Shown here piece by piece: positions 37,548 through 45,004 of a DNA stretch of 48,356 nt (position 1 is the first letter of the stretch; the number at the start of each line of letters is the position of its first letter). The stretch is from Acidimicrobiales bacterium. GTDB lineage: Bacteria > Actinomycetota > Acidimicrobiia > Acidimicrobiales > Iamiaceae. The notes below the pieces were generated by a model. The model was given only the letters and a program-made list of their open reading frames with translations. It did no database searches and was not told where the DNA came from. A program made the translations under genes and the position numbers. The stretch is from the NCBI GenBank assembly GCA_025463365.1, contig JAOBWM010000123.1, positions 1 through 48,356 on the forward strand, given 5' to 3'.

Positions 37548-38408
37548 TCACTCGGCGAGCACGGGCTCGGGGACTGCGTCGGCCGCGGGCTCGGCATCAG
37601 CCACGATCGTCGGGACCGACATGCGCCGACGGGCGGAACGCAAGCGGCGCGCCCCCCAGTCGAGGCCCAGGGCGATCACCATCAGGCCGATGGCGACGAT
37701 GCCGTCCATCCACCAGTGGTTGGCCGTCGCCACGACCGCGAAGAACGTGAGGGCGAGGTGGACCGGGCCGATGATCCGCCAGCGGCTGGGGCTGGCCTCC
37801 AGCACGCCGAAGCACACGATCGCGGCCCAGGCGATGTGGATCGAGGGCATGGCCGCGAACTGGTCGGACACACCGGTGCCGACCGGCCCGTACACGGACT
37901 TGTGGAGCACGTTCGACATGTCGACGAAGCCGAGGTCCGGCAACAGGCGCGGCGGCGCGACGCGGACGAAGCGGATGAACAAGCAGAAGCCGGTGGTGAT
38001 GACCAGTGCGTTGCGCCACCGCGGGTAGTCGGGCTTGTGGCGGACGTACAGCCAGACCAAGAAGCCGAGCAACGCCGGCACGTGCGCGGTCGCATAGAAG
38101 CTGACGGCGAACTCGGCGAGCCAGCGATGGTGGAGCGTCCACCGTTCGATGGCGAGCTCGCTCGGCAGGTGGAGCCATTGCTGCAGGCGCCAGATCTGGT
38201 GGCCCCGCTCGACGGCGCCCTCGTCCTGCACGAGCGGCAGCACCCGGGCGAGGCGCCAGAGCATGTAGAGGAACGACACCAGCGCGACCTCGGTCGCGCC
38301 GGCGGCGACGGACGGCCCGCGACGGTTTCCCCATCGCTTCGCCGCGGCGGCCAGGAGCAGCATCGCGACCGTGAGGGAGGCAGCTTGCTGCCAGTTCGGC
38401 CACGGCAC
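37548..38408 (-). CDS. PAP2-superfamily membrane phosphatase/inositolphosphotransferase-like
   Basis: 286-aa protein with about six membrane helices. The PAP2 catalytic motifs are recognisable: RVAPPRLLPDLGFVD, SDQFAAMPSIHIAWAAIV (PSxH-type) and ANHWWMDGIVA with His and Asp. The spacing and the AMPSIH pattern fit the Aur1/Ipt1-like PAP2 group found in actinobacteria. Likely acts on a phospholipid or prenyl/inositol phosphate at the membrane; substrate unknown. The start is GTG 38408; the C-terminus is a short cytoplasmic Ala/Pro/Glu tail. Confidence 0.85.
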   Translation of the reverse strand: MPWPNWQQAASLTVAMLLLAAAAKRWGNRRGPSVAAGATEVALVSFLYMLWRLARVLPLVQDEGAVERGHQIWRLQQWLHLPSELAIERWTLHHRWLAEFAVSFYATAHVPALLGFLVWLYVRHKPDYPRWRNALVITTGFCLFIRFVRVAPPRLLPDLGFVDMSNVLHKSVYGPVGTGVSDQFAAMPSIHIAWAAIVCFGVLEASPSRWRIIGPVHLALTFFAVVATANHWWMDGIVAIGLMVIALGLDWGARRLRSARRRMSVPTIVADAEPAADAVPEPVLAE

Positions 38409-38430
38409 GACAGACAGTCTGCCGGGTGCG

Positions 38431-42056: not shown

Positions 42057-43280
42057 ATGTCGCACCTCGCCAACGTCTGGTTCTCCCTGACCGACCTCCA
42101 GGTCGCCAGCGGCGATGGGTGCTGGGTCACCACGACCGACGGTGACCGCTACCTCGACTTCAGCTCGGGGATCGCCGTCACCTCCACCGGCCACAGCCAC
42201 CCCGCCGTGGTCGCCGCCATCGCCGAGCAGGCCGGCCGGTTCGTGCACGCACAGGTCAACTGCTACCGCCACGACCGCCTCGAGCCGCTCGCGGCGCGGC
42301 TGGCCGAGATCAGCCCGCCGGGCATCGACACGTTCTTCTTCGCCAACTCCGGCGCCGAGGCGACCGAGGCCGCGGTGAAGCTGGCCAAGCAGGCAACCGG
42401 GCGCCCGAACGTGGTGGTGTTCTCCGGCAGCTTCCACGGGCGGTCGCACCTGACGATGGCGATGACGACCTCGAAGACGGGGTACCGCGCCGGACACGCA
42501 CCGTTGCCGTCGGGCGTGTTCGTGGCGCCGTTCCCCGATCCCTTGCGACGCGGGGCCGACCTCGACGACTGCATCGCCGGGTTCAAGGCCCTGTTCGCCA
42601 CCCAGACCGCGGTCACCGAGACCGCGGCGGTGGTCATCGAGCCCGTGCTCGGCGAGGGCGGGTACATCCCGGCCCCGGCCCCGCTGCTCCAGGCGATCGC
42701 CGAGGTGTGCGCCGAGCACGGGATGTTGTTCGTGGCCGATGAGGTCCAATGCGGCTTCGCCCGCACCGGCACGATGTTCGCCATCGAACAGGCGGGCGTG
42801 CGGCCTGATGTCGTGATCATGGCCAAGGGGATCGCGTCGGGCTTCCCGCTCAGCGCGATCGGCGCGTCGGCCGAACTCATGGCGAAGTGGCCGACGGGGA
42901 GCCATGGCGGCACCTACGGCGGGAACCCGATGGGGTGCGCGGCAGCACTGGCCACGCTCGAGATCCTGACGGCGGACGGGTTCCTGGAGAACGTGGTCGC
43001 GCGCGGCGAGCAGCTGCGAGCCGGCCTGACGGCGCTGGCGTCGAAGCATCCGGCGATCGTCGACGTGCGCGGTCCCGGCCTGATGGTGGCCACGCAGTTC
43101 GACGACGCGGCGAGGGTGCCGGTGATCCTGCGCCACTGCCTCGACGAGGGGAACCTGATCCTGATGAACGCCGGCACCTACGGCACGGTGATCCGCTGGA
43201 TGCCGCCGCTCGTGGTGTCGGCCGAGGAGATCGACCTCGCCCTCGACGCCTTCGCCGCCGCCCTCGACGCGACCTCCTGA
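42057..43280 (+). CDS. Class III aminotransferase (4-aminobutyrate-type)
   Basis: 407-aa PLP-dependent aminotransferase. Seen: YLDFSSGIAVTSTGHSHPAVV, FFFANSGAEATEAAVKLAKQATGR, FSGSFHGRSHLTMAMTTSK, IEPVLGEGGYIPAPAPLLQ, VADEVQCGFARTG (Asp228 pairs with the PLP nitrogen) and the Schiff-base Lys257 in DVVIMAKGIASGFP. The pattern fits 4-aminobutyrate, putrescine or beta-alanine/aminoisobutyrate aminotransferases. Together with the aminobutyraldehyde dehydrogenase at 20 kb it could serve GABA or polyamine breakdown, but the genes are 21 kb apart. AAGGA precedes the ATG. Confidence 0.9.
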   Translation: MSHLANVWFSLTDLQVASGDGCWVTTTDGDRYLDFSSGIAVTSTGHSHPAVVAAIAEQAGRFVHAQVNCYRHDRLEPLAARLAEISPPGIDTFFFANSGAEATEAAVKLAKQATGRPNVVVFSGSFHGRSHLTMAMTTSKTGYRAGHAPLPSGVFVAPFPDPLRRGADLDDCIAGFKALFATQTAVTETAAVVIEPVLGEGGYIPAPAPLLQAIAEVCAEHGMLFVADEVQCGFARTGTMFAIEQAGVRPDVVIMAKGIASGFPLSAIGASAELMAKWPTGSHGGTYGGNPMGCAAALATLEILTADGFLENVVARGEQLRAGLTALASKHPAIVDVRGPGLMVATQFDDAARVPVILRHCLDEGNLILMNAGTYGTVIRWMPPLVVSAEEIDLALDAFAAALDATS

Positions 43281-43337: not shown

Positions 43338-43343
43338 TACCGT
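43338..43343 (+). promoter_or_regulatory. -10 box (TACCGT) of the tRNA-like gene
   Basis: TACCGT ends 8 nt before the predicted 5' end of the acceptor stem, about where transcription would begin. It supports expression of the RNA. Confidence 0.5.
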
Positions 43344-43351
43344 GGCTGCTG

Positions 43352-43484
43352 CCTGGGGTAGCTCCAAGTGGTAGAGCGCCTACTGGTCCTCCGTTCACTC
43401 CATCGTGAGTGAGACGAGGCCGCGATCTCGACGGAGATGCGGCAGATGTAGGAGTTGCGGGTTCGAGTCCCGCCCCCAGAACCA
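43352..43484 (+). tRNA. tRNA-like gene with two-hairpin insertion in the anticodon loop
   Basis: A tRNA scaffold is clear. Acceptor CCTGGGG (43352-43358) pairs with CCCCAGA (43474-43480) except the first pair, followed by A and encoded CCA (43482-43484). The D-arm is GCTC-GAGC (43361-43364, 43374-43377), the anticodon stem CCTAC/GTAGG (43379-43383, 43448-43452), and the T-arm GCGGG-TTCGAGT-CCCGC. The anticodon loop is 64 nt (43384-43447) instead of 7; removing 57 nt would leave a 76-nt tRNA. The extra sequence folds as two adjacent hairpins (43388-43419 and 43420-43442). Reading T43384 as U33 gives anticodon GGU (Thr), tentative. It may be an intron-containing tRNA, a disrupted tRNA or a new structured RNA. 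Confidence 0.6.
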
Positions 43485-43489
43485 CCGGT

Positions 43490-43535
43490 CGTCCCGGTCT
43501 CCGCCTGCCCGGCGAGGCCGGGACGGCTGCGTTTT
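43490..43535 (+). terminator. Intrinsic terminator after the tRNA-like gene
   Basis: CGTCCCGG (43490-43497) pairs with CCGGGACG (43518-43525), and GCTGCGTTTTCC follows with a short T-run. It begins 6 nt after the encoded CCA and would end the RNA. Confidence 0.65.
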
Positions 43536-43570: not shown

Positions 43571-43969
43571 TCAGCCGTGGGCGGTCCGGCGCCGGGCGTG
43601 GGCCGCACCCAAGGCTCCGACCGCGACGCCGACGACGGCGCCGTAGATGCCGACGGTCCGCGACCGTTCGGGCAGCCGGTCGTGGTTCGCCACGCCGCCG
43701 ACGAGGTCGGCCAGGTCGGCGCCGCCGCTGGCGAGGAACCAGCCGGCGGTGGTCGGGTCGCCGCGCAGGCCGGCGCGCAGGAGCATGCCGCCCACCAGCG
43801 CATCCCGGTAGCCCATCGACCGCAGCAGGAGCGACGCCGTGGGGTTGTCGTCGGGGTCGCCGCCCCAGATCTTCGTGGCCGCCTTCGGCGCGACCAGGAA
43901 CGACACCCCCGACGCCAACCGGATCGCTCCCGCTCCCACTGCCAGCTTGTCCACCTGCGCTCGTGCCAT
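43571..43969 (-). CDS. Small membrane protein of unknown function (DUF4267-like)
   Basis: 132 aa starting MARAQVDKLAVGAGAIRLASGVSFLVAP. It has the pattern of a DUF4267-like membrane family: two to three weakly hydrophobic helices (GAIRLASGVSFLVAP, LVGGMLLRAGL, GIYGAVVGVAVGALGAAHA), the segment KIWGGDPDDNPTASLLLRSMGYRDALVGGML and GWFLASGGADLADLVGG. No catalytic motif is seen. It is convergent with the tRNA-like gene and divergent from the next hydrolase. Confidence 0.7.
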   Translation of the reverse strand: MARAQVDKLAVGAGAIRLASGVSFLVAPKAATKIWGGDPDDNPTASLLLRSMGYRDALVGGMLLRAGLRGDPTTAGWFLASGGADLADLVGGVANHDRLPERSRTVGIYGAVVGVAVGALGAAHARRRTAHG

Positions 43970-44062
43970 GGCGGTGCAGCCTGCCCGACGCGGCTGGCCG
44001 GCGCCCGGAACGGCGTGACGCCTACCCCCTGTTCGGATGACGACGACCGGGAGGGCCGTCGG

Positions 44063-44068
44063 TAGCGT
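44063..44068 (+). promoter_or_regulatory. -10 box (TAGCGT) of the alpha/beta hydrolase at 44075
   Basis: TAGCGT ends 6 nt before GTG 44075; no ribosome-binding sequence fits in between. Confidence 0.5.
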
Positions 44069-44074
44069 CGAGTC

Positions 44075-45004
44075 GTGAACTCCGTCGAGAAGCGGTCGGT
44101 CAACCTGCACGGCCACCAGGTGGTCTACCGAGAGGCCGGCCGGGCACCCGAGGGAACGCCGGACCGTCCCGTGTTGCTGCTGGTCCACGGCATGGCCGGA
44201 AGCTCGGCGACCTGGAAGGCCGCCCTCCCCCGGCTGGCCGAGCGGTACCACGTGATCGCGCCGGACCTGCCGGGACACGGCGAGTCGGACAAGCCCCGCC
44301 AGGACTACTCGCTCGGCGCCTACGCCAACACCTTGCGCGATCTCATGATCGCCCTCGGGGTCGATCGCTCCACGGTGGTGGGCCAGTCACTCGGCGGCGG
44401 CGTCGCCATGCAGCTCGCGTACCAACACCCGAACCGTTGCGAGCGCCTCGTGCTGGTGTCGAGCGGGGGCCTCGGGCCGGACGTGTCGTGGATGCTGCGG
44501 GCGCTCACCCTCCCCGGGTCCGAGTACCTCATGCCGCTGCTCTTCCCCCGCTTCGCGGCCCAGGCCGGCAACGTCCTCAGCCGGCGGCTGGCCTCGTTCG
44601 GGATCCGCTGGGCCCAGGTGGAGGAGGAGTGGCGGGCGTACGTCTCGCTCACCGAGCCGACCAACCGCGAGTCGTTCGTGAAGACGCTGCGAGCCGTGGT
44701 CGACCCCCGGGGCCAGACCGTCAGCGCCCACGACAAGCTGTACCTGGCGAGCCGGCTCCCCACGCTCATCATCTGGGGCCGCGAAGACCGGATCATCCCG
44801 GTCTCGCACGCCGCGGCCGCCCAGGAGTCGATCCCGGGCAGCAAGCTGGTCATCTTCGAGGGCGCCGGTCACTTCGCCCACGCCGAGGAACCCGATCGGT
44901 TCGTCGATGTGCTCTCGGAGTTCGTCGACGAGACCGAGCCGCTGGAGCTCGACGAATCCGAGTGGCGCGAGGTCCTCACCGCCGGACCACCCGCTCGCAC
45001 CTGA
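44075..45004 (+). CDS. Alpha/beta-fold hydrolase
   Basis: 309-aa classical alpha/beta hydrolase. Oxyanion region LLLVHGMAGSSATWKAALPRLAERYHVIAPDLPGHGESDKP, nucleophile Ser in VVGQSLGGGVAMQLAYQHP, acid Asp in IIWGREDRIIPVSHA, and catalytic His in FEGAGHFAHAEEPDRF: the triad is complete. The sequence resembles ring-cleavage (MhpC/BphD-like) and lipase-like hydrolases, but no partner genes are nearby to settle the substrate. The start is GTG 44075 behind the TAGCGT box. Confidence 0.9.
   Translation: MNSVEKRSVNLHGHQVVYREAGRAPEGTPDRPVLLLVHGMAGSSATWKAALPRLAERYHVIAPDLPGHGESDKPRQDYSLGAYANTLRDLMIALGVDRSTVVGQSLGGGVAMQLAYQHPNRCERLVLVSSGGLGPDVSWMLRALTLPGSEYLMPLLFPRFAAQAGNVLSRRLASFGIRWAQVEEEWRAYVSLTEPTNRESFVKTLRAVVDPRGQTVSAHDKLYLASRLPTLIIWGREDRIIPVSHAAAAQESIPGSKLVIFEGAGHFAHAEEPDRFVDVLSEFVDETEPLELDESEWREVLTAGPPART

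Follow-up and report, generated by a model that had tools for sequence, protein, structure and literature searches.

A tRNA-like gene with a structured arm in place of the anticodon loop, so far known from one genome of the Acidimicrobiales

The tRNA-like gene and its surroundings

The window examined here is a whole stretch of 48,356 nucleotides, corresponding to contig C107 (GenBank JAOBWM010000123.1) of an Acidimicrobiales draft genome (4.31 Mb, 219 contigs, 98.4% complete). Between a plus-strand gene at 42057-43280, presumably aminotransferase-like according to our own reading of its protein, and a minus-strand gene at 43571-44278, there lies a tRNA-like gene that is composed and flanked as follows:

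43338-43343, plus strand: -10-like hexamer TACCGT (TANNNT), ending 8 nt before the gene
43352-43484, plus strand: tRNA-like gene, 133 nt (ARAGORN -i, free fold and constrained fold)
43352-43358, plus strand: acceptor stem, 5' strand CCTGGGG, with a C1.A72 mismatch and pairs 2-7 intact
43361-43377, plus strand: D arm, stem GCTC/GAGC, G18G19 present and C in place of A at position 14
43379-43383, plus strand: anticodon stem, 5' strand CCTAC (constrained fold)
43384-43447, plus strand: replacement of the anticodon loop, 64 nt (constrained fold)
43389-43418, plus strand: hairpin A, CTC.GTTCACTC / GAGTGA.ACGAG, loop CATCGT (free and constrained folds)
43419-43443, plus strand: hairpin B, GCCGC.ATCTC / GAGATGCGGC, loop GACG (free and constrained folds)
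43448-43452, plus strand: anticodon stem, 3' strand GTAGG (constrained fold)
43457-43473, plus strand: T arm GCGGG-TTCGAGT-CCCGC with T54, T55, C56 and A58 (constrained fold)
43474-43480, plus strand: acceptor stem, 3' strand CCCCAGA (constrained fold)
43481-43484, plus strand: A73 and the encoded CCA (sequence)
43486-43529, plus strand: terminator-like stem-loop of 19 pairs (-37.0 kcal/mol), then CGTTTT with four T

Twenty stem pairs are intact (acceptor 2-7, four in the D stem, five each in the anticodon and T stems). Apart from C1.A72 and C14, the gene has what is canonical for a tRNA: the stems of the acceptor, D arm and T arm, the TTC loop, G18G19 and CCA. Canonical elongator tRNAs have a 7-nt anticodon loop with U33; here the loop measures 64 nt, and with the 5-bp anticodon stem no register yields U33. 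An earlier note, made from the letters of this DNA, had described the acceptor, D, T and anticodon stems, the encoded CCA, the C.A pair at 1:72 and a 64-nt loop built as two back-to-back hairpins; each of these is found in its place in the sequence, and the hairpins appear in the fold as well. The locus at 43352-43484 (plus strand) is genuinely a tRNA-like gene, well formed and carrying a structured arm that does not decode.

The reading that we come to favor is that of an orphan gene for a noncoding RNA mimicking a tRNA, and the signals around the gene bear on it in both directions. A TANNNT hexamer occurs 3-12 nt upstream of 19 of the 47 other tRNA genes of this genome, the background being 0.26% of window positions on both strands, mostly coding. 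Such a hexamer at the correct distance, together with the strong stem-loop downstream, counts in favor of the mimic; the plain consensus scan, which called neither a sigma-70 promoter nor a terminator at the gene, counts against it. The -10 box 8 nt upstream and the terminator after the CCA that had been proposed earlier correspond to TACCGT and to the 19-pair stem-loop with four T.

Detection and predicted folding

The gene is missed by ARAGORN under default settings and by Rfam at gathering thresholds. Once introns are allowed, ARAGORN reports [43352,43484] with a 57-nt insert, in agreement with the former claim that removing 57 nt leaves a tRNA of 76 nt. With this setting the real window yields two matches, the second lying at 38292-38410 on the other strand, and 100 dinucleotide-preserving shuffles of the window yield a mean of 0.22 and a maximum of 2. 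The pair formed by the D-arm and T-arm motifs occurred in 0 of 100 shuffled windows, and chance is therefore no explanation for the gene. An ordinary tRNA, a tmRNA and a curated Rfam RNA were ruled out by default ARAGORN and by Rfam (at gathering and at E<=10). The tmRNA (RF00023) resembles the present gene in carrying a tRNA-like domain on a longer RNA. It differs in that the window gene has only 133 nt and a complete D stem, and the model gave no match to the gene at gathering and none at E<=10.

Folded freely, the whole gene reaches -59.2 kcal/mol, which 3 of 200 shuffles equal or better (z -2.89). This minimum-energy structure disrupts the D arm, and enforcing the cloverleaf costs 3 kcal/mol (-56.2), which speaks against the predicted cloverleaf as drawn and counts against the mimic. 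When the cloverleaf is enforced, GTC at 43386-43388 pairs with GAT at 43445-43447, giving an extended anticodon stem that leads into a three-way junction predicted to be nearly free of unpaired bases; when the stem is not extended, hairpin A gains one C-G pair at its base. In stability the insert exceeds shuffles only mildly, 70 of 2000 doing as well when it is folded alone and 52 of 1000 when it is folded in context, a further point against the mimic. Its pairing is unusually complete, with 16 unpaired bases against a shuffle mean of 24, and since only 7 of 1000 shuffles were as low, this counts for it.

Relatives, origin of the tRNA body and the relic alternative

The earlier note had proposed looking for the same locus in related genomes, and neither 24 family genomes nor 397 order genomes yielded a homologous one. 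BLAST against 99 relatives returned, besides the gene itself, short matches among those listed, mostly to the T arm, and a pattern of D, anticodon and T arms matched one of 397 order genomes, namely its own. With model R1 the gene itself scored 172 bits, and the best score elsewhere in the 24 family genomes was 51.5 bits; those top matches that were run through ARAGORN are ordinary tRNAs. The model also gave a few matches of 120-140 nt, at most 19.2 bits, in the family genomes G003, G018 and G021. Across the 397 order genomes, with eight candidates scored per genome, nothing else reached E 1e-6. Among phage and plasmid sequences, 52 and 5 records matched in part, covering at most 32% of the gene among the matches listed, and no homologue with the same anticodon stem was found in viral contigs. 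The gene is unique so far, i.e., known from one genome. Since no homologue was found, neither covariation nor any trace of selection over time speaks for it, and this counts against the mimic.

Several other leads were abandoned. L016 and L017, the first apparent relatives, are sites inside genes read as beta-glucosidase. A syntenic locus was sought via the upstream aminotransferase, for which only two of the other genus members (11 in all) had a match at E 1e-80, with 43% identity; via the downstream hydrolase, the examined flanks of its family homologues held no tRNA-like gene. A mobile repeat in the loop was rejected, the insert being unrepeated in the genome and its other 20 matches spanning 14-30 nt. 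Repair of a missing isoacceptor was likewise dropped: Gly(gcc) and Pro(tgg) are absent among the 47 tRNAs of the 219-contig draft, and neither was judged to fit the acceptor.

With the loop masked, the identity of the body to 970 class I tRNAs from fetched loci does not exceed 76.5%, and to the tRNAs of its own genome it does not exceed 73%. Of the own tRNAs, 12 share their anticodon with one of 44 tRNAs sampled from relatives; 11 of these match that counterpart at 83-99%, and the twelfth, an odd Trp tRNA, reaches only 68% with its isotype in relatives. Such low identity of the body argues against a fresh break of a house tRNA, and the disrupted tRNA, one of the options raised earlier, is not a recent one, given the 73% figure for own tRNAs. 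That option survives in another form, a serious rival to the mimic: a tRNA relic, laterally acquired or an old duplicate, whose anticodon loop took up an insertion and which is now decaying without a function. We consider this possible, if less probable than the mimic. It is favored by the restriction of the gene to one genome, by the 47 other tRNA genes, Thr(ggt) included, and by the lack of a tRNA-like gene in the examined hydrolase flanks. Mismatch C1.A72, C14 in place of A14 and the missing U33 are what decay would also leave, and they count against the mimic to that extent. The genome has other odd tRNAs as well, such as the cluster of Trp, Asp and Cys genes at G000:C183:3295-3554 (L052, L075), two of which score only 32 and 48 bits. 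Against a relic stand the 20 pairs that remain intact although the body has diverged this far from any tRNA compared, which also counts for the mimic, the promoter-like element in register upstream, and an insert that is no repeat and is unusually fully paired.

The intron alternative

The same 57-nt excision that restores a cloverleaf would fit a short intron spliced out of the anticodon loop of a tRNA gene, an option raised in the earlier note. In this reading the tRNA would be Thr GGU, its stem moved by one position and the insertion placed after position 37. We regard this as very improbable. C2:G71 and A73 fit Thr and are counted for it, and the loop is the archaeal intron site, holding the insert in 12 of 15 archaeal matches vs 3 of 59 bacterial ones in the scan described below. 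However, no splice register with a full 5-bp anticodon stem contains U33, and reading T43384 as U33, which was said to give GGU (Thr), works only if the stem is shifted by one at the price of a G27.A43 mismatch. No bulge-helix-bulge was found at the loop borders; two folds of this kind lie elsewhere, and 155 of 200 shuffles had as many. The C1.A72 mismatch and the Thr(ggt) tRNA already present in the genome also tell against splicing. The missing U33 and the missing bulge-helix-bulge at the loop make an intron unlikely, and the variant in which a Thr GGU tRNA in the shifted reading loses a structured intron of ~57 nt through a splicing mechanism that is not known from bacteria deserves very little credence.

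Known introns offer partial likenesses. The known bacterial tRNA introns are far longer than this insert, which is counted against the intron, and a group I core would not fit into 57-64 nt. None was seen by Rfam in the window gene, either at gathering or among the four matches at E<=10. The archaeal bulge-helix-bulge introns of tRNA genes share the position in the anticodon loop and a similar length; the window gene differs from them by the absence of that motif at its loop and of U33 in register, and its genome does not appear archaeal by gene content. Group I introns that interrupt bacterial tRNA genes, as described in the part of the source consulted (PMC3984707), share with it the interruption of a tRNA gene.

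Expanded tRNA-like genes and their association with Ro60

A class scan for a D arm followed by a T arm at 62-92 nt gave 105 stretches in genome contigs: 15 archaeal loci, 60 bacterial loci whose match is not covered by an ordinary tRNA and 30 loci where it is. Viral contigs gave at least 120 stretches, and 67 of 120 lacked an ordinary tRNA over the match. Pfam detected TROVE in 25 of 42 genomes with expanded bacterial loci (42 of the first 43 loci, L272 being left out because it was read as two ordinary tRNAs end to end) vs 1 of 14 control genomes. Adjacency was examined by tblastn with 18 TROVE reading frames, a nineteenth having been dropped for having no homologue among them. A TROVE homologue lay in the same stretch at 38 of 60 bacterial loci, in 35 cases with centers less than 2 kb from the tRNA-like gene; among archaeal loci this held for 0 of 15, and among those with ordinary tRNAs for 2 of 30. 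For viral contigs the counts were 12 of 67 expanded loci vs 1 of 53 with ordinary tRNAs. Pfam overlooked some TROVE genes that tblastn found, e.g., at L258, L267, L299, L315 and L318. The Rfam YrlA gathering score was reached in 6 of 28 distinct loci submitted, and that model misses un-permuted Y-like RNAs beside Ro60. Together, the Rfam matches and the adjacency to Ro60 indicate that a large part of the class consists of known bacterial Y RNAs, and for this reason the idea that the class represents short phage introns was dropped. The bacterial expanded loci that adjoin Ro60/TROVE are probably Y RNAs.

In the bacterial loci the insert mostly sits elsewhere than in the window gene. Placed between positions 28/29, it leaves a full anticodon hairpin with U33 in 28 of 59 bacterial loci (re-paired control 7.6) and in 13 of 43 loci of viral contigs (control 2.9); of the viral loci these counts cover only L121-L200, and loci with a T-stem spacing outside the pattern (e.g., L268) were dropped. 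The window gene is pairable in this way too, but without U33. The viral tRNA-like genes L144 (IMGVR_UViG_638275430, 233234 bp) and L132 resemble the window gene in carrying the insert within the anticodon loop. Another loop-type gene, L356:34-174, has a GTA anticodon by our own reading and lies on a 3.1-kb contig labelled deltaproteobacterial; it could be a mis-binned archaeal intron.

Six Y-RNA-like genes near Ro60 (L336:909-1008, L273:2283-2377, L293:2822-2916, L310:492-589, L286:6000-6099 and L333:3503-3600) have tRNA order, an open acceptor and a closed Y stem. Rfam YrlA is a circular permutation of these six and misses all of them at gathering. Among 21 sequences, all seven acceptor pairs have changed on both sides with no broken pair.

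A separate set of 14 tRNA-like genes has short inserts: L259, L261, L282 and L285 (Lachnospiraceae), L276, L283, L291, L308, L323 and L358 (Bacteroidota), and L133, L156, L199 and L200 in viral contigs. Twelve of them are pairable as 28/29 insertions, several carry ACAGCAA- or ACTTACTTC-like motifs, and the stretches examined around them contain no TROVE homologue. They may be Y RNAs whose Ro60 lies far away, or they may form a different class.

Closer to the window genome, three order-mates, L378 (G135), L377 (G255) and L374 (G164), have 5-20 tRNA genes around a TROVE gene, and the expanded RNAs beside it match the Y-RNA model R2 weakly (17-29 bits).

Comparison with bacterial Y RNAs

Bacterial Y RNA of the YrlA kind has reportedly been described before. 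In the parts of the sources consulted, YrlA consists of a tRNA-like domain and a stem that binds Rsr/Ro60 (PMC8394870, PMC7790460). Like bacterial Y RNA/YrlA (RF02553), the window gene has tRNA-like D, T and acceptor arms, to which a structured extension is joined where the anticodon arm would be. The RF02553 model itself is circularly permuted; the window gene is in tRNA order. Its topology, an open acceptor with an insert between the D and T arms, is that of the un-permuted Ro60-linked RNAs, the 5' side of the insert has GTCCTCCG in common with a Sorangium Y RNA (L293), and TROVE occurs in 6 of 298 genomes of the order. One could thus see in it a strongly diverged, un-permuted bacterial Y RNA whose Ro60 was lost or became dispensable, which we consider improbable.

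Model R2 gives the window gene 51.1 bits, but it gives ten ordinary tRNAs of the same genome 27.9-54.5 bits, which renders the figure uninformative beyond the tRNA body; on other expanded RNAs it gives 38-84 bits, archaeal introns among them reaching 60-68. The insert-only model R3, which recognizes only one Y subclass, yields 3.5 bits on the strand of the gene. Rfam YrlA gives it 12.7 bits, from the T arm only, against a gathering score of 69, a weak argument alone since the model misses un-permuted Y-like RNAs. No TROVE protein was found in the genome, either with Pfam PF05731 (none at E<=10) or with a profile of 15 TROVE members, the best match of which had 9.5 bits over 16 positions (E 0.51). 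Finally, the insert forms two stable hairpins, whereas YrlA has one interrupted Y stem, and no 3' strand resembling GGUUAUC, ACUAC or UUACUUC was seen in it by eye. With no Ro60 found in the genome and 12.7 bits against 69 for YrlA, membership of the window gene in the Y RNAs is not supported.

Discussion

We favor the orphan tRNA-mimicking noncoding RNA gene as the best reading, ahead of the relic, the diverged Y RNA and the intron, and we hold it tentatively, at close to even chances. That a tRNA body with a structured arm recurs beside Ro60, as the adjacency counts indicate, counts in its favor. An anticodon-arm-expanded regulatory RNA, one of the options in the earlier note, is the best fit: the design is real, and it recurs in bacteria and phages, mainly as Ro60-linked Y RNAs. 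As to its putative function, the window gene resembles known tRNA-mimicking RNAs in design and belongs to no family testable here.

The transcript would adopt a tRNA body, and proteins that process or bind tRNAs would be expected to recognize it. According to the constrained fold, the place of the decoding loop would be taken by a lengthened anticodon stem that ends in a tight three-way junction made of two hairpins, and an RNA of this shape would be unable to decode. The tRNA body would most likely provide processing, stability and a docking surface, while the two-hairpin arm, by analogy with the Y stem that serves YrlA for Ro60, would most likely bind or scaffold a putative partner.

Genes of this type are passed over by ARAGORN in its default mode, and un-permuted ones beside Ro60 escape the Rfam YrlA model. 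If expressed, the window gene would represent a tRNA mimic in a genome without sign of Ro60, the partner encoded beside most of the similar bacterial loci, and it would suggest that tRNAs have repeatedly given rise to regulatory RNAs by replacement of the anticodon arm.
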